From: Aureispira sp. CCB-QB1
GTDB lineage: Bacteria; Bacteroidota; Bacteroidia; Chitinophagales; Saprospiraceae
Assembly (NCBI RefSeq): GCF_000724545.1
Contig: NZ_JHBV01000021.1
Coordinates: 62,001 to 126,000, forward strand
Reading direction: 5' to 3'
DNA: 64,000 nt
Under the pieces are notes generated by a model. The model saw only the letters and a list, made by a program, of their open reading frames with translations, was not told where the DNA came from and ran no database searches. Both the position numbers and the translations under genes were made by a program. Below are positions 5,559 through 17,335 of this stretch, one piece after another (the first letter of the stretch is position 1; every line of letters starts with the position of its first letter).

Positions 5559-7151
5559 TTACTTAGTTGAATCTACATTTCCAAAACAATACAAATAACC
5601 ATTTCTAGAAGCTACGTATAATTTCCCTTCATCTACAACAGGGGTTGATTCACAGCGGACTTTGACCATATCTCGAAGCTTAAAATTCATATTACTATCA
5701 AAGTCAAACAAATAAATTCCTTTGTAGCTTGCTGCAATTAGCTTGTCTTTGATAATAATTGGTGTAGAAATAGAGGAACCTGTCTTGTATTTAAAAAGAA
5801 GCGTTGGTTGAGAGAAAAAATGCGTGCTATCAAATGTTGCCTTGGGTTGAGTAAGATCTAAGGAATCTGTATTAACAACATACATAAAGCCATCAATTGC
5901 TGTAAACACCGCTATATTGGGTTCCCCAAACTTCTTAAAAGAATAGTTAACTCCTGTAGAACCGATGACCCCACCATCCCAAGTCGAAAAAGGCTTGTTT
6001 TCTGTTGGAAAAAACCATTCTACTGCTTCATTCGGACTTTTGTTAGGATTTAGCTTCAAAACACCTCCATGTCCTTTTATATACTGCTTTTCAATAGTTA
6101 CCAACAAACAGCTATCTTTTGTTACAACTGGCGAACCATCAATGTCTGATCCTACATAGTAATCCCAATCAATACTATCTGTCTGCAAATTGTATCCCCA
6201 AATATGCCCAGATCCTGAGGCAATATAAATTCGATGCCCCAACAAAGTGGGCGATGCTTCTGTTACCAAATTTCCTTGGTGTTTCTCCCAATCACTTTTT
6301 AGATAAAGGGTATCTTTGTTTTTATAAATTTGAGGCTGCAACAAACCACCTCTTTGAGTTGCGTTTTTGGGATCAGGGTCAAAAATAGTCCAAATGCTAT
6401 TCTCCAAACCAATGTAAGCCGTATCATTTACAATCAAAGCAGAAGCATCGACATCTCTACTATAACTTGCTGTCTTAGCGCTATTCAAACGCCAAAGTTC
6501 TTCCCCTGTAATCAAAGAAATAGCTCGGTAGCTTGGAATTGTTGTGGCATAAGTGCTTTTTCCTGCCCGACTTCCTTGCAGAATCACACAAAAATGTTTC
6601 AAAGAATCTGCTTGATGATTCAACCACAAACTACCAGTCCCTTTTATTACATCATCGTATTGATACTGCCAAATCAATTGCCCTGTTTTGGCATCTATTT
6701 TTTTCAAATGATGATCGTATGCTCCTTGTATCAAATACTTTTCTCCATTTTCAGCTACTATCAAAGGCTGTCCTGTCCAACCTGCCCCTTTCCATATTTT
6801 CTCCTCTGTACCTACTTTGGTAATTCCCTGCCCTAGTTTGTGCTTCCATAGTACATTCAACTGACTTGGTGCGCTATCGCCATAATAGTTTCGCATAGGA
6901 TTATGCAAAAAACTGGCATTCAATAGCTCTAACGTAAAGATACTTCCATCTTGTTTTTTGAAACTCCCCTTGTATGGATTGCGCTCGTGAGTAATAACAA
7001 CCGTTGTTTCTTTAGAAGCATCTAATTCTAATTGAGAAGCTTCCATTGTTGGAACTACAACATGCCCAAGGTGCAATTGATAAAGCAAAACAACAATTCC
7101 TCCGAAGGTAATGGCAATTATTCCAACTAAAATTTTACCTGATCTGTCCAT
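5559..7151 (-). CDS. Membrane-anchored PQQ-like beta-propeller protein
   Basis: This 530-residue protein starts with a hydrophobic segment (residues ~8-25, ILVGIIAITFGGIVVLLY) that is either an uncleaved anchor or a signal. The rest should lie in the periplasm. The body has repeats of the PQQ-enzyme/BamB type, for example KIDAKTGQLIWQYQ, LITGEELWRLN and GHIWGYNLQTDSIDWDY, giving a predicted beta-propeller of about seven to eight blades. Such proteins can be quinoproteins or non-enzymatic scaffolds. No dehydrogenase partner, cytochrome c motif or BAM gene is adjacent, so the function stays open. The gene has no partner within 300 bases on its strand. Family call is good, function is not. Confidence 0.8.
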   Translation of the reverse strand: MDRSGKILVGIIAITFGGIVVLLYQLHLGHVVVPTMEASQLELDASKETTVVITHERNPYKGSFKKQDGSIFTLELLNASFLHNPMRNYYGDSAPSQLNVLWKHKLGQGITKVGTEEKIWKGAGWTGQPLIVAENGEKYLIQGAYDHHLKKIDAKTGQLIWQYQYDDVIKGTGSLWLNHQADSLKHFCVILQGSRAGKSTYATTIPSYRAISLITGEELWRLNSAKTASYSRDVDASALIVNDTAYIGLENSIWTIFDPDPKNATQRGGLLQPQIYKNKDTLYLKSDWEKHQGNLVTEASPTLLGHRIYIASGSGHIWGYNLQTDSIDWDYYVGSDIDGSPVVTKDSCLLVTIEKQYIKGHGGVLKLNPNKSPNEAVEWFFPTENKPFSTWDGGVIGSTGVNYSFKKFGEPNIAVFTAIDGFMYVVNTDSLDLTQPKATFDSTHFFSQPTLLFKYKTGSSISTPIIIKDKLIAASYKGIYLFDFDSNMNFKLRDMVKVRCESTPVVDEGKLYVASRNGYLYCFGNVDSTK

Positions 7152-7572
7152 CTGTACTTAATTTCAATTGAAGGTGTACTTTTGGTCCTAAAAATAGCTG
7201 TTTTCTATTCAATTATTCTTTAAAACGTTATTCTTTTGATAATCAATTACTTGCAATACAAAAAACTTCTTAACAACTTACTGACTTACAAAGCACTATA
7301 AATCTTTTTTTTTAGCTTCCAACAAACTTATAAACAAGGATTTAAATCAAGGATAACCAAAATAAGAGAATCTTTATTTTTAAAACAATCGTATAGCAAA
7401 AGAAAATCCTTAACTTTGGTTATGTACATTTAATTATATCCACGAATTACTTTATTGGATTTTTTTGCTGATAACACGAACTCGTTTGCTCCTGTTTGTA
7501 GTTCTTAGCTAAAAAAAAACATCATTTAGTAAACTGCTGTTATTACTCTCAAATTAAAATAGAATAAAAATC
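7152..7572. other. Divergent intergenic region
   Basis: These 421 bases between divergently transcribed genes hold no ORF of note. A TAACTTTG match to the Bacteroidota -7 box lies at 7411-7418 on the plus strand, about 155 bases upstream of the flavin reductase gene, but without a convincing -33 element. Confidence 0.5.
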
Positions 7573-8472
7573 ATGCGTAGCATTACTCCTGGAGAAATAG
7601 AAACTAAAGATTTGCATCAATTCATATTAGGTGCGGTAGCCCCAAGACCCATTGCATTTGTGAGCACAATTGACGATAAAGGAGTGGCGAACATTGCTCC
7701 TTACAGCTTTTTTAATGCTTTTAGCTCTAATCCTCCTGTTTTAGTTTTCTCTTCCAATAGACGCGTTGCAGATAATACGACAAAAGACACCTTGCACAAT
7801 ATTGAGCTTAACCAAGAAGTCGTTGTTAACGTAGTTAATTATTCTATTGTTCGTCAAATGGCGTTGGCCAGCATTTCATACCCCTCTGATGTCAGCGAAT
7901 TTGCAAAGTCAGGACTAACTCCTTTAAAATCCGAAATGGTACAACCATTTAGAATCAAAGAATCTCCTGCTCACTTTGAATGCAAAGTAAGTGAAATCAT
8001 TACCTTAGGGGAACATGGGGGTGCAGGACATCTAATTATATGTCAGGTTTTAAAATTACATGTCAGCGAAGAGGTGCTAGATGGCGACAGAATCAACCCA
8101 CACAAAATTGATTTAGTGGGAAGAATGGGGCGAGCACACTATGTTCGAGCGAGTGGTGCTAATATTTTTGACGTCTATCAATCTGTTGTCAAACTATCAT
8201 TGGGTTTTGATCAATTACCTCCTCACTTAGTCAATAGTACCGTACTTACTGGTAATGATTTGGCTCAAATTGCAGGCTTATATGAATTCCCTAAAGATGA
8301 TTTGATTCAAGAATTATTGATGAGTAATGAAGTCCAAGAAGTATTAATTAGTGCAGAAGCTCCTGACGAAACCATGCTAGAAGGCTTGCATAAGTTAGCC
8401 AAAAAAGCATTAAATGAGGGGGAACCAGAAAAAGCATTTGGCTTTGCTATGCTTTACGAAGCAGTAGGTTAA
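7573..8472 (+). CDS. Flavin reductase family protein (FMN-binding split barrel)
   Basis: This 299-residue protein is a predicted cytoplasmic FMN-binding split-barrel protein of the flavin reductase/DIM6-NTAB family. The N-terminal half carries the family pattern GAVAPRPIAFVSTIDDKGV (residues ~16-34) followed by NIAPYSFFNAFSSNPP, where the flavin phosphate and ring are bound. The C-terminal ~100 residues (from about 190) are an alpha-helical extension seen in the Bacteroidota version of the family. It could reduce free flavin or act on an unknown substrate. It lies 45 bases upstream of the HisC-like gene on the same strand, suggesting an operon. No monooxygenase partner is adjacent. Confidence 0.85.
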   Translation: MRSITPGEIETKDLHQFILGAVAPRPIAFVSTIDDKGVANIAPYSFFNAFSSNPPVLVFSSNRRVADNTTKDTLHNIELNQEVVVNVVNYSIVRQMALASISYPSDVSEFAKSGLTPLKSEMVQPFRIKESPAHFECKVSEIITLGEHGGAGHLIICQVLKLHVSEEVLDGDRINPHKIDLVGRMGRAHYVRASGANIFDVYQSVVKLSLGFDQLPPHLVNSTVLTGNDLAQIAGLYEFPKDDLIQELLMSNEVQEVLISAEAPDETMLEGLHKLAKKALNEGEPEKAFGFAMLYEAVG

Positions 8473-8517
8473 GCCGATTCTACAATTCTTGATGCCAACA
8501 TTCTAAACAGGATAATT

Positions 8518-9684
8518 ATGGAACATACAGAAAAAATAAATGAATGGATTCCAAAATACATTCGAAAGTTAGTTGCTTCTAAAGAAGCTTTGGTCGAAAC
8601 GCTTGATATCAAAGCAGGTTTTCTGAATGCACATCGCCCTACTGGCTTGTATGGAACAGTTGGCACCGATGAAGATTATAGTCAACGTCCAGATATCAAA
8701 GCAACTCGACTCAAAGAAGAATTAGCTGCTTATACTAACTTAACGCCTCAACAAATTTGTATAGGCAACGGATCTACCGAATTGATTGATTTGGTTATTC
8801 GCACCTTTTGCCATGTTGGACAAGATCATATTATAGGATTTCAACCTTCTAACAATCGCCTAAAGCATTTTGCAAAAATGCAGGCACTTGAAATTGATTT
8901 ACTAGAATTAGGTCATAATTTTGAAATGCCTATTTATGAGGTTCGCAAATCCATTACAGAAGCCACAAAACTGCTTTTTATTGAAAACCCTAATCATATT
9001 ACGGGTTCTTGTTTTGCGAATTTTGATATTGTAGACTTAGTCACTAGTTTTGACGGAATTGTTGTGATCGATGAATCTGCTATCGACTATGCACCGAATC
9101 AGAGCTTAGTTTCCATTATCAATGAGTGTTCTAATGTTATCATCATTCAAAGTTTTTCTAGAGCATGGGGTTTAGCAGGGCTTCCAGTCGGCATGGCTTA
9201 TGCTAGTCCAGAAATTATCCGAATTTTAAATATTTTAAAACCTCCTTTTTCGGTCAATACGGTAGCTCAAAAAATGGCCACTAAAGCATTGTATGTACCC
9301 GATCAAAAAGCGAGAATTGTAACTAGAACAATTGAGGAAAGGGCGCAAGTTAAAACAATGCTAGAAAAGCTCCCTGCGGTATTAGAAGTTTTTGACAGTG
9401 AAACGAATACACTCTTAATCAAAGTTGAAGATGCTTCTATCATGACACAACACCTTCGAAAAGAAGAGCTTATTCATGTTTTAAACGTTTCTGACTTACC
9501 AGGTTTAGACAACTGCATTCGGATTACCATTGGAAAAGGCTTAGATAACATGCGTCTGGTCAAAGCATTCAAAGATATGCCTATTAAGACATCTGGAAGT
9601 CGTTTGTTCTGGAAAGCAGTTTCTGGAACACTACGCCAAGCCAGTTCTTTTTTGGGTATTTTTAAGAAAATATTAGGGGTCTAA
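8518..9684 (+). CDS. HisC-like fold-type I aminotransferase homologue lacking the PLP lysine (probable pseudoenzyme)
   Basis: This 388-residue protein is recognisably a histidinol-phosphate aminotransferase relative: IGNGSTELIDL (cf. GNGSDEVIDL), VVIDESAIDY (cf. VVDEAYIDF), QSFSRAWGLAG (cf. QTFSKAWGLA) and NCIRITIGKG (cf. NCLRITVGT). The lysine that forms the Schiff base with PLP is Arg215 (codon AGA, 9160-9162). Other cofactor contacts are also changed: the PTY tyrosine is Asn112, PNNPTG is PNHITG (158-163), the DEAY tyrosine is Ala188, and the phosphate-binding Arg of the SKAWGLAAARVG segment is Pro223. Asp185, which pairs with the pyridine nitrogen, remains. The frame is intact, with a basic/hydrophobic C-terminal tail of ~30 residues. 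It is probably not a transaminase; a regulatory or structural role is inference. It sits 45 bases after the flavin reductase gene and is followed by a terminator. Confidence 0.85.
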   Translation: MEHTEKINEWIPKYIRKLVASKEALVETLDIKAGFLNAHRPTGLYGTVGTDEDYSQRPDIKATRLKEELAAYTNLTPQQICIGNGSTELIDLVIRTFCHVGQDHIIGFQPSNNRLKHFAKMQALEIDLLELGHNFEMPIYEVRKSITEATKLLFIENPNHITGSCFANFDIVDLVTSFDGIVVIDESAIDYAPNQSLVSIINECSNVIIIQSFSRAWGLAGLPVGMAYASPEIIRILNILKPPFSVNTVAQKMATKALYVPDQKARIVTRTIEERAQVKTMLEKLPAVLEVFDSETNTLLIKVEDASIMTQHLRKEELIHVLNVSDLPGLDNCIRITIGKGLDNMRLVKAFKDMPIKTSGSRLFWKAVSGTLRQASSFLGIFKKILGV

Positions 9685-9739
9685 ATTACTATATTGACAC
9701 GCGATTATATCAATATAAATTGTGCCCATCCTTACCTAC

Positions 9740-9783
9740 AAAGCTTGTTTTTGGCAAATTAAGCTAAAAACGAGCTTTTTTTT
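9740..9783 (+). terminator. Rho-independent terminator after the HisC-like gene
   Basis: The arms AAAGCTTGTTTTTGGC (9740-9755) and GCTAAAAACGAGCTTT (9763-9778) pair over 16 positions with two wobble pairs, followed by a T-run. Confidence 0.85.
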
Positions 9784-9867
9784 GTCCATTTACTTCTGTA
9801 TTTTGTGCCATCAACAATCAAAGAATAGACACTAGTAATTTAGCTGCTGACTAATTCACAAAATTTA

Positions 9868-9895
9868 TAAACTACTTCCACCAAAATGTAGTTTA
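9868..9895 (+). other. Small inverted repeat upstream of the ArsA-type ATPase
   Basis: TAAACTAC (9868-9875) pairs with GTAGTTTA (9888-9895) around a 12-base loop, in the leader of the next gene. There is no T-tract, so it is not an obvious terminator. Its role is unknown. Confidence 0.35.
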
Positions 9896-9961
9896 ATAAT
9901 AAGGTCTGTGAGATACAAAAGAAAACCAACAGGCACATTCAAAAATCAATCAAATTTTAAT

Positions 9962-11128
9962 ATGCGAATCATACTATTTACAGGAAAAGGAGGAGTTGGA
10001 AAAACAACCACGGCTGCTGCCACAGCCTTACAATGCGCTAGAAAAGGTTTAAAAACATTAGTCGTTTCTACCGACCCTGCGCACAGTTTGTCTGATGCCC
10101 TCCATGTTGAGCTTCAGCCCGAACCTACTCTGATTACAGAAAACTTATGGGGACAAGAATTTGATGTCTACTATTCTATGAAAAAGAATTGGGAGAGTAT
10201 GCGCCACTTAATGTTGTCTATTTTTAAATGGCGAGGTGTGAACAACGTTGTTGCAGAAGAGTTATCAGTATTGCCGGGTATGGAAGAAGCCTCTGCTTTC
10301 TTGTGGATTGAAAAATATTATCAAGAAAAATTTTACGATGTCTTAATTATAGATAGTGCTCCTACAGGCGAAACATTGACATTACTCACCTTGCCTCAAG
10401 TCATGCAATCTTGGTTAACCAAAGCCTTTCCTGGGCAAAAAATGGTTATCAAAGCTGTTGGCAAAATCTTAAAAAAGACCAAAGGCATTCCGCTAGAAGA
10501 GGGCTATGAAGAACTACAAAACTTATTTAATAAGTTGGAAACTGTTCAAAAAATCATGCTCAATCCTGAAATTTGTTCTATTCGTATTGTAGCCAATCCA
10601 GAGCGCATGGTTATACAAGAAGCCAAACGTGCTTATACTTACCTCAACTTGTATGGTTACAATGTAGATGCAGTCGTTGTAAATCGAATTTTACCAGAGT
10701 TGGCTGGTGGTGCGGGGTCTGTTTTTGAGCAATATGTTCAATCTCAAAGCAAGTACCTTCAAGACATCGAAGAAAGCTTTCAACCTTTGCCTATTTTTAA
10801 AGTAGAACATCAAGGACAAGAAGTATTTGGTCTAGAATTATTACAACAAATAGCCACAGCCATCTATAGCGAAGCCAATCCTGCTAAGATATTTCATAAC
10901 GAAAGTCCTTTCAAAGTAGAAGAATTTTCAGATTACTACAAAGTCTCTATGTACCTTCCTTTTATTGGTGCCGAAGAATTTAGCTTAGAAAAATACGGCG
11001 ATGAATTAGTCATTAGTATTGGTGGACGTAAAAAAAGTGTCCTCCTTCCTCGTTTTGCTAATTTCTTGGACTTGGATGGTCATGCTTTTAATAATTCTTG
11101 GTTGCACATACGTCTAAAAAAGGGGTAA
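9962..11128 (+). CDS. ArsA/Get3-family ATPase with C-terminal HSP20-like domain
   Basis: This 388-residue cytoplasmic P-loop ATPase carries the deviant Walker A motif GKGGVGKTTTAAA (from residue 8) and the switch-like STDPAHSLSDAL, both typical of the ArsA/Get3 family. Residues ~315-388 form a beta-rich HSP20/alpha-crystallin-like domain (EFSDYYKVSMYLPF, then GDELVISIGGRKK), matching the ArsA_HSP20 type seen in bacteria and chloroplasts. It is a single ATPase unit, not the duplicated ArsA of arsenic operons, and no arsB/arsC/arsR is nearby, so arsenite export is unlikely. I chose ATG 9962 over the GTG at 9908 because the family starts directly before the first beta strand and P-loop. It is followed after one base by an acetyltransferase gene. 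Confidence 0.88.
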   Translation: MRIILFTGKGGVGKTTTAAATALQCARKGLKTLVVSTDPAHSLSDALHVELQPEPTLITENLWGQEFDVYYSMKKNWESMRHLMLSIFKWRGVNNVVAEELSVLPGMEEASAFLWIEKYYQEKFYDVLIIDSAPTGETLTLLTLPQVMQSWLTKAFPGQKMVIKAVGKILKKTKGIPLEEGYEELQNLFNKLETVQKIMLNPEICSIRIVANPERMVIQEAKRAYTYLNLYGYNVDAVVVNRILPELAGGAGSVFEQYVQSQSKYLQDIEESFQPLPIFKVEHQGQEVFGLELLQQIATAIYSEANPAKIFHNESPFKVEEFSDYYKVSMYLPFIGAEEFSLEKYGDELVISIGGRKKSVLLPRFANFLDLDGHAFNNSWLHIRLKKG

Positions 11129-11129
11129 T

Positions 11130-11588
11130 ATGACACTAAACTGGGTTTGCAAATCATTTGAAACATTATCAGGAATAGAGGTTTATCAACTTGGTCACTT
11201 GCGCCAACAAGTCTTTGTTGTAGAGCAAAACTGTCCTTATTTGGATTTTGATAACTTGGATACAATCTGTGCGCATGTTATGGCGTTCAATGACCAAAAT
11301 CAACTCATGGCGTATACTCGATTGGTTCCCAAAGGAGGATCTTATGAGCATGATATTTCAATTGGGCGTGTGGTCACCAGTCCTTTGACACGAGGCAAGG
11401 GAGTTGGGCGATTGTTAATGGAAAAATCCATTGATTATTGTTGGGGTTTGTGGGGCAAACAGAATATTCGCATTTCTGCACAGGATTACTTATTGGAATT
11501 TTATGAAAGCTTAGGTTTTAAGGATACGGGTAAAAAATACCTAGAGGACAATATCCCTCATACACAAATGTATTTGGAAGTAAAGTAG
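11130..11588 (+). CDS. ElaA-type GNAT N-acetyltransferase
   Basis: This 152-residue cytoplasmic protein matches the ElaA subgroup of GNAT acetyltransferases: LRQQVFVVEQNCPYLDFDNLD (here spanning residues ~24-44) and the acetyl-CoA pyrophosphate loop IGRVVTSPLTRGKGVGRLLM with RGKGVG. The C-terminal YESLGFKDTGKKYLEDNIPH is also family-like. The substrate is unknown. It starts one base after the stop of the ArsA-type gene, so the two are almost certainly co-transcribed. The following 187 bases before coaX contain no clear terminator. Confidence 0.9.
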   Translation: MTLNWVCKSFETLSGIEVYQLGHLRQQVFVVEQNCPYLDFDNLDTICAHVMAFNDQNQLMAYTRLVPKGGSYEHDISIGRVVTSPLTRGKGVGRLLMEKSIDYCWGLWGKQNIRISAQDYLLEFYESLGFKDTGKKYLEDNIPHTQMYLEVK

Positions 11589-11775
11589 GCAAAAATGCTT
11601 TGGGAAACTCTAAAATTGAAATTAAAACTATCCTTTCTCTTTTTAGCAACGTTTCTACAATTAGTAATTCACCAACACTTTGTTGTATATGGTGTCAAAA
11701 AATTAGCTTGTGTCAACTAGTCAACTATTTTCTTGATATCATGTAGTTCAATCAACTTGCAAAAATAATCATATA

Positions 11776-12504
11776 ATGAACCTATGCATTGATGTAGGCA
11801 ATACACAAGTAAAACTAGGGGTTTATGATGCACAGAATGTCTTACATTCATTTTCTATACATTCTGAATTATCAATCCCCCTCTTAGAAAAAGTATGTTC
11901 AGAATTTGCAATAAAACATGCCATTTTATCCTCTGTTCGGGCAGATTATCAGCAAATTATAGACTTTTTGAGCACACAGCTACAAACTGTCATTCAGTTA
12001 TCAGCAGCAACCAAGGTTCCATTAAAGAGCCAATATCAAACTCCTAAGACATTAGGGAATGACCGGCTGGCAGCTGTGGTTGGCGCAACAGTAATACATC
12101 CTACACAAGGAGTTTTGGTCGTAGATGCAGGCACTTGTATCACTTATGATTTTGTTACAGCTCAACATGTTTATATGGGAGGAAGTATTTTACCAGGTAT
12201 TCAAATGCGTTTTCGAGCTTTACACCAATTTACAGCAAAACTACCTTTGATTGAGCAAGAAAATTTGAACCACTTTATCGGTACCTCTACCAAAACATCT
12301 ATTCAAACAGGAGTACTTTATGGTGTTTTGCACGAACTGAAAGGTTTTAAATTACAATATGAACAACAATTTGGCAATATTAAGGTCATTGTGACTGGAG
12401 GCGATGCATCTTATTTTGAAAGTCAACTTAAAAATGAGATATTTGCGCAGCCTAAACTCGTTTTGATAGGTTTAAATAAGATTTTAAATTATAATACACA
12501 ATAG
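11776..12504 (+). CDS. coaX: Type III pantothenate kinase
   Basis: This enzyme phosphorylates pantothenate, the first step of coenzyme A synthesis, in the cytoplasm. The 242-residue protein shows the ASKHA-fold phosphate-1 motif CIDVGNTQVKLGVYD at the N-terminus, the substrate/phosphate-2 segment GNDRLAAVVGA and VVDAGTCITYDFV, then GGSILPGIQMR and VIVTGGDA. All match CoaX. Length is normal for the family. It lies 118 bases upstream of an outer-membrane protein gene in the same direction; I recall this neighbourhood as common in Bacteroidota, but cannot verify it here. Confidence 0.95.
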   Translation: MNLCIDVGNTQVKLGVYDAQNVLHSFSIHSELSIPLLEKVCSEFAIKHAILSSVRADYQQIIDFLSTQLQTVIQLSAATKVPLKSQYQTPKTLGNDRLAAVVGATVIHPTQGVLVVDAGTCITYDFVTAQHVYMGGSILPGIQMRFRALHQFTAKLPLIEQENLNHFIGTSTKTSIQTGVLYGVLHELKGFKLQYEQQFGNIKVIVTGGDASYFESQLKNEIFAQPKLVLIGLNKILNYNTQ

Positions 12505-12622
12505 ATTTGCCTCTGTTGCACCTTGATTTTGTTGGTTTGGCATAGAACCACCAATCTAAGTAAAAATTCAATGCCTTAGATAGACAATCAACAAACAACA
12601 GACAATTCAAAAATAAATTTTC

Positions 12623-14023
12623 ATGCAACAGCTTTTTAAGCAGACATTTACACCATTTTTAGTCCTTCTTTTGATGGGAACAATGGTAACAGCTTCTTTT
12701 GGACAATATTCTAGAGGTAATTCGCCTTATTCTCGATATGGCTTAGGAGATTTGAAAGGCTCTCTTTTTACCCCTAATGCCTCTATGAGTGGAGGATTAT
12801 CAGCTACCTACCGTAGTTATTGGGACATCAACCTAACCAACCCTGCTTCATTAGGAAAACTACGTTACACCTCTTTTCAACTTGGTCTGGACTATCGCCA
12901 CAGCGAATTATCAGAAAAAAACACAGGTTTGTCTGCACAAGCAGATAATGGGAACTTGACCTACTTGTCTTTGGCATTTCCGATTACGAAAAGTTGGGAA
13001 GTTATGCGAGATACTTTGCGCAGAGGAGCTCCTGTTCAATGGGGAATGGCTTTTAGCTTGATGCCCTATAGCCAAGTTAATTATGATGTTTCTGTAACAC
13101 GAACCGTAGGCAACATTCCTAATGTATTGTTCAATTATACAGGAGAAGGCAATAAGTATCGTGTCAATTGGTCAAATGGAGTTACCTACAAAGGCTTTTC
13201 GGCAGGACTCAATGCAGGATTATTATTTGGAAAAATTAGCAACAGCACCTATATTGATTTTAGAGATAGTTCCTATTCTTTGGCTTATGATGAGCGATTA
13301 TTAGTAGAAGAAAATGGTGTTGGCTTTATTTGGGATCTTGGATTACAATACGAGTATGTCGTTCCATCCAAAAATAAAAAAGTATCCCCAGACCCAAGTT
13401 TCAGTATCGACAATAAATTAACCATTGGTGTTTATGCTGGAGGTGTTTCTGATATCATTACTACTTCTAGCCAACAATATACTAGAGTTGGCTTATACCA
13501 CCCTATTGATTCTATCCAAAACGCTAGCGACATCAAAGGAAGTCTTAACATGCCTATAAAATTAGGTGGAGGCGTTTCATTTGGCAAAGATTTGGGACTG
13601 TTGGTCGGCGCATCTTATGAAACAGAGATGTGGTCAATGTTCCGTAGAAATGGGGAAAAAAGTCCTAATTTATCCAATTCTCATCGTTTTGCAGTGGGTT
13701 TACAAATTGTTCCTGATTTTGCCGATTATACCAGCTATTTTAATAGAATTCGCTACCGTGTAGGCGCACATTATGGGCTTGATGCTCGTACTTTTGTTGC
13801 TGCCAATGGCACTAGCTATCAACTAATGGACTATGGATTGTCTATTGGAGCAGGTTTCCCGATGCGTCCTCCCAAAGCAAAAAGTATCTTAGGTTTTGTT
13901 AACCTTGGCTTTGATGTAGGGTACTTAGGACACCCAGAGCTAATTGGCGATGTCTACTTTAAAGTTAACCTTGGTTTTGCCTTAAATGCTAGTGGATGGT
14001 TTGACCGTTCTAAGTTTAGATAA
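12623..14023 (+). CDS. Putative outer-membrane beta-barrel protein
   Basis: This 466-residue protein has a signal peptide (residues 1-27, ending SFGQ) followed by the N-terminal pattern NSPYSRYGLGDL, which is characteristic of a conserved Bacteroidota outer-membrane protein family. The rest alternates short beta strands with aromatic residues and many glycines, as expected for a beta-barrel, for example FQLGLDYRH, KLTIGVYAGGVSDI and KLGGGVSFGKDLGLLVGASYE. The function is unknown; a transport or FadL-like role would be speculation. It may be in an operon with coaX and is followed by an inverted repeat. Confidence 0.75.
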   Translation: MQQLFKQTFTPFLVLLLMGTMVTASFGQYSRGNSPYSRYGLGDLKGSLFTPNASMSGGLSATYRSYWDINLTNPASLGKLRYTSFQLGLDYRHSELSEKNTGLSAQADNGNLTYLSLAFPITKSWEVMRDTLRRGAPVQWGMAFSLMPYSQVNYDVSVTRTVGNIPNVLFNYTGEGNKYRVNWSNGVTYKGFSAGLNAGLLFGKISNSTYIDFRDSSYSLAYDERLLVEENGVGFIWDLGLQYEYVVPSKNKKVSPDPSFSIDNKLTIGVYAGGVSDIITTSSQQYTRVGLYHPIDSIQNASDIKGSLNMPIKLGGGVSFGKDLGLLVGASYETEMWSMFRRNGEKSPNLSNSHRFAVGLQIVPDFADYTSYFNRIRYRVGAHYGLDARTFVAANGTSYQLMDYGLSIGAGFPMRPPKAKSILGFVNLGFDVGYLGHPELIGDVYFKVNLGFALNASGWFDRSKFR

Positions 14024-14192: not shown

Positions 14193-15632
14193 ATGACTTA
14201 TTCAAATTCCAATCTTTATTATCTAATTATAATTGGAATACTATACAACTCTTACATGGTTGCCCAATGCAACTCTTGGGAAGCGCACCCGCAGGGTATT
14301 GAATATGCAAAAGAACAACACGTTCTTTATCGAGATTGGCTCAACAACAAGCAATATCAGAAAGCATTTCCAATATGGAGGGCACTATTTCTAAATGTGC
14401 AATCCCCAAAAGAAGCTCCCAACAGGCACTTCAAAGATGGTATTTATCTTTATTATAACCTTGCGAAAATAGAAACCAACTCAACTAAAAAAATTGTCCT
14501 TATTGATACGCTTATCAATTTGTATCAACAACAGGAAAATTGTTTGGGTAAAAATACCTCCAACAAAGTTTGGATGGGTTATCATCTATATGTTTTACAA
14601 GCAGAACCTAGCATCGTTGTAGAAGCTTTTCAAGAAGCACTTCAATTAGGTGGTCATCAGACATCTAGTACCGTCATTTTTCCGATGGCTCAACTCTCTG
14701 TCTATTTATACCAAAAGAAGCATCCTACATTTACAAAAAAATATGTAACTGCCTTATATCACCAACTAAAAGATTTGGTTGATCAGAACAAAAACAACCC
14801 CATCTATTTAGAAAAATGGAAAAAAGCAGAACAGGAATTTCTTCGAATTCAGGATTATTTGTCTACAATCTGGGATTGTAATTTTTTTGAAAACCATTGG
14901 CGACCACTTTATCTTCAAGACTCTAATAATATAAAGCAAAATGAAGAAATTCTAAGTATTTTAGAGAAAAAGTGTGGTCAAAACACCAAATTCTACCAGC
15001 TTGTTCAACAGCAACAACAAGCCCTACAAACTCAAAATAGTCTTTCTTGTACTCTCTTTGTACCAATATCAGAATTACCGCCCTACCAACAAGGTATGCA
15101 TTACGAAATGCTTAGTAGAAAATGTCTAAAAAACAATGATTCTCTCCAATACAAAACCCATCGAGCAAATGCATTTGCTCTATATGAGGCAGCCATTGTT
15201 GCCAATGATTCTACTATAAACTCAAAAGAAAAAGCAGAATTGGCTTATAGAATCGCTTATGAGTACTTTATCCATGAAGCATTCCCTAAAGCTAAAAAAT
15301 GGTGTAGAATAGCTTCTGTACATCAACCTAAGTGGGGAGCACCTTATATTCTTGTAGGGAATTTATATATCAACAGTTATACTACTTGTAAGCTTTCTGC
15401 TCCTTCCACTTGGGAGGGCAAAGCTGTTATTTGGGTAGCACTTGATGAATGGAGAAAAGCAAAAAAAATAGATGCTAGTGTAAAAGAAATTGCTAATAAG
15501 AGAATTCAACGTTATGAAAAGTATCTGCCCTCTAGTGAAGAAGTTTTTCAACAAACACTTCAAATTGGAGCACCCTACTTTGTAGATTGTTGGATTCAGC
15601 AAAAAACCACGGTGCAAGTTGCTCCCAATTAG
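14193..15632 (+). CDS. Secreted helical-repeat (TPR-like) protein, paralogue A
   Basis: This 479-residue protein has a signal-like hydrophobic N-terminus (residues ~8-25, ending in AQC). The body is mostly alpha-helical and looks TPR-like. It is a clear tandem paralogue of the next gene: compare SWEAHPQGIEYAKEQHVLYR here with SWEAYPNGVESAKEKHVIYR there. The two also share PMAQLSVYLYQKKHP / PMAQLTVYLFKNKHP, ELAYRIAYEYF / ELAYRIAYHYF, and a C-terminal PYFVDCWI / SYTVGCWI. This copy is less charged and has drifted more. The family occurs in Bacteroidota but I cannot give it a function. It probably resides in the periplasm or on the surface. Confidence 0.75.
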   Translation: MTYSNSNLYYLIIIGILYNSYMVAQCNSWEAHPQGIEYAKEQHVLYRDWLNNKQYQKAFPIWRALFLNVQSPKEAPNRHFKDGIYLYYNLAKIETNSTKKIVLIDTLINLYQQQENCLGKNTSNKVWMGYHLYVLQAEPSIVVEAFQEALQLGGHQTSSTVIFPMAQLSVYLYQKKHPTFTKKYVTALYHQLKDLVDQNKNNPIYLEKWKKAEQEFLRIQDYLSTIWDCNFFENHWRPLYLQDSNNIKQNEEILSILEKKCGQNTKFYQLVQQQQQALQTQNSLSCTLFVPISELPPYQQGMHYEMLSRKCLKNNDSLQYKTHRANAFALYEAAIVANDSTINSKEKAELAYRIAYEYFIHEAFPKAKKWCRIASVHQPKWGAPYILVGNLYINSYTTCKLSAPSTWEGKAVIWVALDEWRKAKKIDASVKEIANKRIQRYEKYLPSSEEVFQQTLQIGAPYFVDCWIQQKTTVQVAPN

Positions 15633-15874: not shown

Positions 15875-17335
15875 ATGTTAAAAAAATGGAAATCTCTTTT
15901 GAAATTTGGTTCAGCCTTATCGCTTACTGTTTTAATGGCGGGACAAGCTTCTGCTCAATGTGAGTCATGGGAAGCGTATCCTAATGGTGTTGAGAGTGCC
16001 AAAGAAAAACATGTTATCTATAGAGACTTATTCAAATCAAAAAAATATAAAGAAGCTTTTCCTGTTTGGGAAGAATTATTTGCTACTGTAAAAATTCCGT
16101 TGCCTGCCAAAACAACGCACTTTAAAAATGGTATTACCATGTATAAAACCTTTGCTAAAGATGAAAAAGACAAAGCAAAGAAGGAAGAATACTTAAAAAA
16201 GATGATGGATCTATACGACCAAATGGCTGCTTGTCTTGGCGAGGATTCTAAAGATAGAGCGTGGGAAGGCTATTATATTTACTCGGCTCGTGGTAGTTCT
16301 GAAACGGCTATTGAGATGTTTGAAAAATCTATTGAATTGGGCAAAAATGAAACCGATGAAATGATTTTTGTTCCAATGGCTCAATTAACTGTTTATTTGT
16401 TCAAAAATAAACACCCCAAATTTACAGCTGAATACATGCGCGCTTTGTATGACCAATTAAAAGGAATTGCTGAGCATAACATTAAGAACAACCAAAAAGA
16501 GGGGGAAAAATACAAGAAAAAATGGGAAAAAGTAGAAGCTGAATTTGGAAAAATTGGTGGTGCTATCTGGGGTTGTGATTACTATGTTGATCAATACAAA
16601 CCTAAATTTGAGGGAGACAAAACTAATATGGAGCAAAATGCAGAAATATTAGATATCTTAAAGAAAAAATGTGGCGAAGAGAATGAATTGTATGTAGAAG
16701 TTCTTGCTATCTACCAACCATGGAAAGATTCAGTAGATTACGAAATTGCTAAAGATAACTTTGGCAAACTTTGCAACTTGAAAAAAGGTCAATTCCGTGA
16801 AATGGAATCTAGAAAGTTCAAAAAAGCAGGCGACGAAGAAGCTGCTGAAAGATACAAAGAGGAAGCTTTTGATTGGTATGAAAAATCTCTAGAAGATCCT
16901 AGTTCTCCAGAATGCGAGACAACGGAGGAAGAAAAAGGAGAATTGGCATATCGTATTGCTTACCACTACTTTGGGAAAGGTGCTTATAGCAAAGCAAGAA
17001 GCTTGTGTTACAAAGCTGCTGAATTAAAATCTGGATGGGGAGAACCTTATATGCTAATTGGAAATATGTACGCTTCTAGTGGGAAACGTTGTTCTGGTGG
17101 TGCTGGAACAGGATGGGATGCACAAGTAGTCGCATGGGCTGCAATGGATATGTGGGCTAAAGCTAAAAGTGTTGACCCTAGCGTTGCATCTAAAGCTAAT
17201 AGCAGTATCGCTAAATACAAAAAGTATTTACCAACCAAAGGAGATATTTTCCAACGTGGATTAAAAGAAGGTGGTAGCTATACTGTTGGATGTTGGATTG
17301 GTGCTACAACAACCATTCGTTCTAATGGAGAATAA
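15875..17335 (+). CDS. Secreted helical-repeat (TPR-like) protein, paralogue B
   Basis: This 486-residue paralogue of the upstream gene has a clear signal peptide (LTVLMAGQASAQ, cleavage near residue 28). It is rich in Lys and Glu (for example KDEKDKAKKEEYLKKMMD) and is predicted to be strongly helical, with TPR-like segments such as ETAIEMFEKSIELGKNE and GAYSKARSLCYKAAELKSGW. It has its own candidate promoter and a strong terminator, and its regular codon choice looks like that of a well-expressed gene. This suggests B is the main copy and A the derived one. Function unknown; a structural periplasmic or surface protein is the most that can be said. Confidence 0.78.
   Translation: MLKKWKSLLKFGSALSLTVLMAGQASAQCESWEAYPNGVESAKEKHVIYRDLFKSKKYKEAFPVWEELFATVKIPLPAKTTHFKNGITMYKTFAKDEKDKAKKEEYLKKMMDLYDQMAACLGEDSKDRAWEGYYIYSARGSSETAIEMFEKSIELGKNETDEMIFVPMAQLTVYLFKNKHPKFTAEYMRALYDQLKGIAEHNIKNNQKEGEKYKKKWEKVEAEFGKIGGAIWGCDYYVDQYKPKFEGDKTNMEQNAEILDILKKKCGEENELYVEVLAIYQPWKDSVDYEIAKDNFGKLCNLKKGQFREMESRKFKKAGDEEAAERYKEEAFDWYEKSLEDPSSPECETTEEEKGELAYRIAYHYFGKGAYSKARSLCYKAAELKSGWGEPYMLIGNMYASSGKRCSGGAGTGWDAQVVAWAAMDMWAKAKSVDPSVASKANSSIAKYKKYLPTKGDIFQRGLKEGGSYTVGCWIGATTTIRSNGE

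Follow-up and report, generated by a model that had tools for sequence, protein, structure and literature searches.

The window (the whole stretch of 64,000 nucleotides of DNA that was analysed) is part of contig C21 of the genome of Aureispira sp. CCB-QB1 (G000), and contains a gene for a HisC-like protein, here called pseudo-HisC, next to a gene for a flavin reductase-like protein (Table 1).

Table 1. Features of the pseudo-HisC locus (positions in the window; residue numbers of pseudo-HisC in brackets)
Feature	Position	Strand	Basis or remark
Flavin reductase-like protein, 299 aa	7573..8472	+	PF01613; 45 bases upstream of pseudo-HisC
Pseudo-HisC CDS, 388 aa	8518..9684	+	ORF, HisC profile, orthologues
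ENPNHITG (156-163)	8983..9006	+	CSPNNPTG in HisC; E156 and N157 invariant 7/7
DESAIDY (185-191)	9070..9090	+	mostly DEAYIDF in HisC; invariant 7/7
Arg215 codon AGA, position of PLP lysine (SKAWG)	9160..9162	+	K in 78/78 HisC; R in 6/7 and G in 1/7 pseudo-HisC
C-terminal extension (357-388), past the HisC end	9586..9681	+	predicted helix 362-386, low confidence; genus-conserved
Terminator-like hairpin, 16 pairs and T run	9740..9778	+	from a pattern match alone; region has 4 such sites, 1.9 expected

The pseudo-HisC locus and its neighbours

The original prediction of a HisC-type fold with an intact reading frame was confirmed. The frame contained 0 internal stops, and a profile search with TIGR01141 (HisC) gave 223.6 bits, which is below the curated equivalog cut-off of 276.55. 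The seven pseudo-HisC proteins of the genus scored 203 to 227 bits with the same profile, and the real HisC of G000 reached 349.9 bits. PF00155 (Aminotran_1_2) matched with 122 bits, which assigns the protein to the class I/II aminotransferase fold, and pseudo-HisC is by descent a member of the fold-type I PLP-enzyme superfamily. An AlphaFold model from a 30-row alignment had a pLDDT of 83.8 and a pTM of 0.81, and the best PDB matches by Foldseek were the HisC structures 7szp, 1gew, 1gex and 1fg3 (best E 4.4e-29; TM about 0.75 by query length). A weak MEIOC Pfam match was below its own cut-off and was taken as chance.

The flavin-reductase neighbour pointed out in the original prediction was conserved, as a flavin reductase gene lay directly upstream of pseudo-HisC in all seven genomes with a full-length copy. 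Of 40 genomes searched, 37 (30 from outside Aureispira) had a strong match to the reductase itself (E at most 5e-60), and 38 had a match at E 0.001. No pseudo-HisC-matching ORF was observed beside the reductase in 23 loci from outside the genus (L154-L176, flanks of about 1.5 kb), and the reductase therefore does not need pseudo-HisC. The hairpin after pseudo-HisC would close a two-gene unit with the flavin reductase. A terminator-like site 3' of pseudo-HisC was also present in G003, and a weak one of 5 pairs overlapped the stop in G005. In G006, G001, G004 and G002, no such site was found after the gene. Promoter-like sites were at chance level, and no Rfam family matched at gathering score in positions 7000-12700.

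On the other side, pseudo-HisC adjoins a gene (window 9908-11128) for an ATPase of the ArsA/Get3 type, which carries an HSP20-like domain (PF17886) at its C-terminus and is well conserved in the genus. It was downstream of pseudo-HisC in G000, G006, G001, G003 and G004, followed one phosphoesterase-like gene in G005, and in G007 adjoined a fragment of the pseudo-HisC tail; it was not in the stretch fetched for G002. A partnership with the ATPase is weakened by this last absence, by the intervening gene of G005 and by the hairpin after pseudo-HisC in the window. Further downstream, two adjacent genes (14193-15632 and 15875-17335) encode proteins that look similar by eye. The product of the first diverges faster (50 vs 81% identity to G003), and had no best match in the G005 stretch.

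Orthologues and selection

Eight genomes of the genus were searched, including that of the window, and seven harboured a full-length pseudo-HisC; in the remaining one, G007, nothing but the C-terminal tail was seen, where a contig ends. Identities to the window protein were 82% in G006, 81% in G001, 72% in G003, 58% in G005, 54% in G004 and 44% in G002. The contigs of 84,980 species were scanned with two patterns, one of which described the NNPTG loop as it occurs in pseudo-HisC. From the 231 relatives found, the best 80 were compared: five were pseudo-HisC (43 to 82% identity), and the other 75 had at most 37% identity and retained the PLP lysine. No match to pseudo-HisC above 36% identity was present in 32 genomes of the family and order. 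Within these searches (best 80 of 231 relatives), pseudo-HisC was found only in the genus Aureispira.

A sequencing error at the lysine codon is excluded by the identical AGA in another assembly of this species (G319, two contigs; 2 differences in 1167 bases) and by the orthologues, as the lysine was missing in all seven full-length genus members. The six orthologues other than the window protein had Arg (five) or Gly (one) at this position.

In a tree of 97 rows, the seven pseudo-HisC formed one clade (100/100), separate from the real HisC of Aureispira, which clustered with a Saprospiraceae sequence (98/91). The pseudo-HisC clade sat on a very long branch (3.53), so its placement among Bacteroidota HisC is unsafe.

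Rates of dN/dS were calculated by the Nei-Gojobori method, by which 14 of the 21 pairs were not computable because of saturation. For the closest pair, G006-G001, pseudo-HisC had a dN/dS of 0.065 (dS 1.07), and the next two closest pairs gave 0.067 and 0.072 at dS values near saturation (1.7 and 1.5). The dN/dS check proposed with the original prediction thus pointed to purifying selection, and pseudo-HisC is under purifying selection. For the same three pairs, dN/dS was 0.022 to 0.038 for the flavin reductase, 0.024 to 0.036 for ArsA and 0.132 to 0.139 for CoaX. The real HisC had values of 0.144 and 0.122 (two of its three pairs were computable). Pseudo-HisC was more conserved than the real HisC in all three shared species pairs (82 vs 74, 72 vs 67 and 73 vs 66% identity).

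Cofactor contacts and new invariant residues

Two sets of HisC sequences were used for reference, one of 76 (75 of the 80 scan loci plus the real HisC of G000) and one of 78, which contains three real Aureispira HisC. The predicted change of the SKAWG lysine to Arg215 was borne out, the residue being Lys in all 76 HisC, as were the four further substitutions at PLP contacts (position 112, PNHITG, 188 and 223). Asn160, Tyr188 and Arg223 were likewise present in 76 of 76 HisC, and were His, Ala and Pro in the window protein; position 112 was Tyr in 67 and Phe in 9 HisC, and Asn in the window protein. These five named losses hold, but they do not make up the full list, as Tyr21, Tyr57 and Arg324 have been lost too. 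This follows from 11 positions which we take, from HisC structures, to be the HisC cofactor and substrate contacts: eight were replaced in the window protein (Tyr21, Tyr57, Tyr112, Asn160, Tyr188, Lys215, Arg223 and Arg324), and Asp185, Ser214 and Arg335 were kept.

Only two of the 11 contacts, Asp185 and Arg335, were common to all seven species. Asn160 and Tyr188 were gone from all seven orthologues, and Tyr57 and Arg223 from six. Ten of the contacts, including the lysine, are conserved to at least 95% in HisC; at 7 of these 10 the HisC residue was left in at most one of the seven orthologues, compared with 18 of 59 other positions of the same conservation (Fisher one-sided p 0.022). By a stricter count, of positions where the HisC residue was absent from all seven, the difference was not significant (5 of 10 contacts vs 16 of 59 others, p 0.14).

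The predicted set of Arg, Asn, Ala and Pro is not fixed among the orthologues. The codon at the lysine position was AGA or AGG in six species and GGA in G002, the most divergent species, which has Gly215, Arg223 and Tyr57; position 112 was Asn, Asp, Ser or Gln. The changes Lys215 to Arg and Arg223 to Pro each occurred in six of seven orthologues, and exactly one arginine was found at 215 or 223 in each species (R215/P223 in six, G215/R223 in G002). As G002 retains both Arg223 and Tyr57, these two residues may have been lost later than the others.

A pattern scan for F-x-[HQR]-A-W-G was performed on 396 genomes of the order; this pattern is blind to arginine encoded by AGA or AGG and so misses pseudo-HisC itself, of which it is no survey. 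It matched in 4 of the 396 genomes, with a HisC-like protein as one of the four matches; the corresponding pattern with Lys had matches in 100. A HisC-like protein of G031 (L065:7347-8390), with His for the PLP lysine and PNNPTG and DEAY intact, seems to have lost the lysine independently within this order. The gene beside it (L065:6781-7350) encodes a lone HAD-phosphatase domain that by eye resembles the front part of HisB, without IGPD.

Thirty-six positions had switched between pseudo-HisC and HisC, a switch being one residue in at least six of seven pseudo-HisC and a different one in at least 70% of the 78 HisC. Six of these were invariant in all seven pseudo-HisC and opposed a HisC residue conserved to at least 95% of the 78 (M114R, C156E, S157N, A187S, Y188A and F298T), and V117H was also invariant in pseudo-HisC. 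Residues E156, N157, S187 and A188 are within the motifs that bear Asn160 and Asp185. As the loss of the lysine and of other contacts was accompanied by new invariant residues, the former active site looks rebuilt, and not emptied or decayed.

The C-terminal extension was present in all seven pseudo-HisC, although shorter in G002, and up to E 10 nothing else in the genome of the window matched it. Its helical moment was matched or exceeded by 358 of 5000 shuffled sequences, which makes a membrane-targeting tail a weak proposal. The conservation of the extension, together with the invariant residues of the N-terminal helix (P12, R16, K17 and K22), would suit a pure structural scaffold or oligomer adaptor, in which the replacements only hold the fold and the function lies in the surface and tail. 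This explanation is possible but rather unlikely, as the new residues of the active-site motifs are invariant down to 41% identity, which goes beyond obvious packing needs.

The protein could also be an enzyme that still uses PLP or PMP, either doing without the usual lysine or relying on a different one that extends into the site. PMP-dependent sugar dehydratases use His in place of the lysine; in pseudo-HisC the position is occupied by Arg or Gly. All seven proteins share the lysines K17 and K22, and K22, at a position that is Ser in 62 of 78 HisC, adjoins the lost Tyr21; the retention of Asp185 and Arg335 also favours such an enzyme. Against it are the loss of Asn160 and Tyr188 from every orthologue and that of Tyr57 and Arg223 from all but one, and we consider a lysine-independent enzyme improbable.

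Histidine synthesis and possible roles of pseudo-HisC

Among the eight genus genomes, HisC above the cut-off was present in three (G000, G003 and G006), IGPD in three, HisG in four and HisD in five. For G001, G002, G004 and G005, which all retain pseudo-HisC, hisG, IGPD and an above-cut-off hisC were not found; the estimated completeness of these genomes is 92, 97, 92 and 99%, respectively, and MAG incompleteness may explain the missing genes. In G007, hisG and the start of hisD were located at a contig end. Pseudo-HisC was located away from the his genes: in G000, hisG, hisD, hisC and IGPD are together on C43, and in G003 pseudo-HisC and the real hisC are at 3.0 and 6.3 Mb of one contig. An isolated histidinol-dehydrogenase-like gene was observed in G002 (L062:8676-9962; PF00815, 508 bits), and its surroundings showed no his genes. 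The product has PQH for PEH and NSI for NHT of four compared HisD, at positions which we take to be catalytic, and may be another histidine enzyme that was put to a new use.

If pseudo-HisC regulated the real HisC or histidine synthesis, or served there as an inactive partner subunit, it would have a parallel in SPT1/LCB1, a lysine-less subunit of the same fold which its active partner requires (PMC6148460), and an above-cut-off HisC does exist in G000, G003 and G006. Such a role is disfavoured, and in our view very improbable, as pseudo-HisC persists in the four genomes where no his operon was found, one of them estimated as 99% complete, and lies far from the real hisC elsewhere. A decaying gene or an artefact, to which the long tree branch and the score below the HisC cut-off might point, has practically no likelihood left and is rejected, being effectively refuted by the low dN/dS and the frames open in all seven full-length copies, with the same gene in a second assembly.

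On sequence grounds, with catalytic residues lost under purifying selection, pseudo-HisC is very probably a pseudoenzyme maintained by selection. Its retention for another role, as first proposed, is supported by the lysine missing in seven of seven species, the purifying selection, the persistence in genomes where no his operon was found and the constant reductase neighbour. The loss of cofactor-holding parts under strong selection suggests that the old enzyme was given a different job. Its constant adjacency and its new invariant residues lead us to infer that pseudo-HisC works with the flavin reductase.

A duplicate of HisC might have lost its PLP chemistry at an early stage of the Aureispira lineage and would then have been retained as a non-transaminase protein. 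The former PLP site would have become a charged network of E156, D185, R114, H117 and one arginine (215 in six species, 223 in the seventh), R114 and T298 being putatively oriented to the pocket. This network might stabilise a cofactor-free fold and bind a small anionic ligand or a partner protein. Pseudo-HisC would be co-produced with the flavin reductase and would modulate or localise it, with the C-terminal tail as a candidate docking or membrane-contact element. The chances are about even that this picture as a whole is right, namely a neofunctionalised HisC, probably PLP-free, that accompanies the flavin reductase and binds a ligand or partner via the rebuilt pocket or the tail. A narrower version, in which the pocket was rebuilt as a PLP-free site for a flavin- or redox-related ligand and coupled to the reductase as a cofactor-free redox or ligand sensor, is doubtful. 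The site that such a sensor would use, E156, R114, H117, D185 and S187 plus an arginine from either of two positions, is an equally speculative assignment.

Fold-type I enzymes are the standard example of PLP chemistry that depends on a lysine, and to our knowledge few of their inactive relatives have been studied; within the results of the literature searches made, no paper on a HisC pseudoenzyme was found. The Aureispira series, in which the protein persists also where histidine synthesis has seemingly been lost, and which includes the less changed Gly/Arg species (G002), is a natural set for tracing the way from a cofactor-dependent enzyme to a binding protein. Naming by similarity would label pseudo-HisC as HisC and would credit a histidine enzyme to species seemingly without histidine synthesis.

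The flavin reductase-like proteins (PF01613) are the family of the constant neighbour and not that of pseudo-HisC. SPT1/LCB1 of serine palmitoyltransferase is, like pseudo-HisC, a relative of PLP enzymes that lacks the PLP lysine, and it is still required (PMC6148460). Unlike pseudo-HisC, it belongs to the AOS family and pairs with an active homologue, whereas four of the genomes with pseudo-HisC show no above-cut-off HisC. Pseudo-HisC differs from HisC in the missing PLP lysine, in the loss of most of the cofactor and substrate contacts considered, in its C-terminal extension, in its location apart from the his genes and in its sub-cut-off score, and has 34 to 36% identity to the real HisC of Aureispira over about 300 residues. 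It has the fold of HisC (TIGR01141; 1fg3, 1gew, 7szp) and has kept Asp185 and Arg335 as well as several of the glycines.
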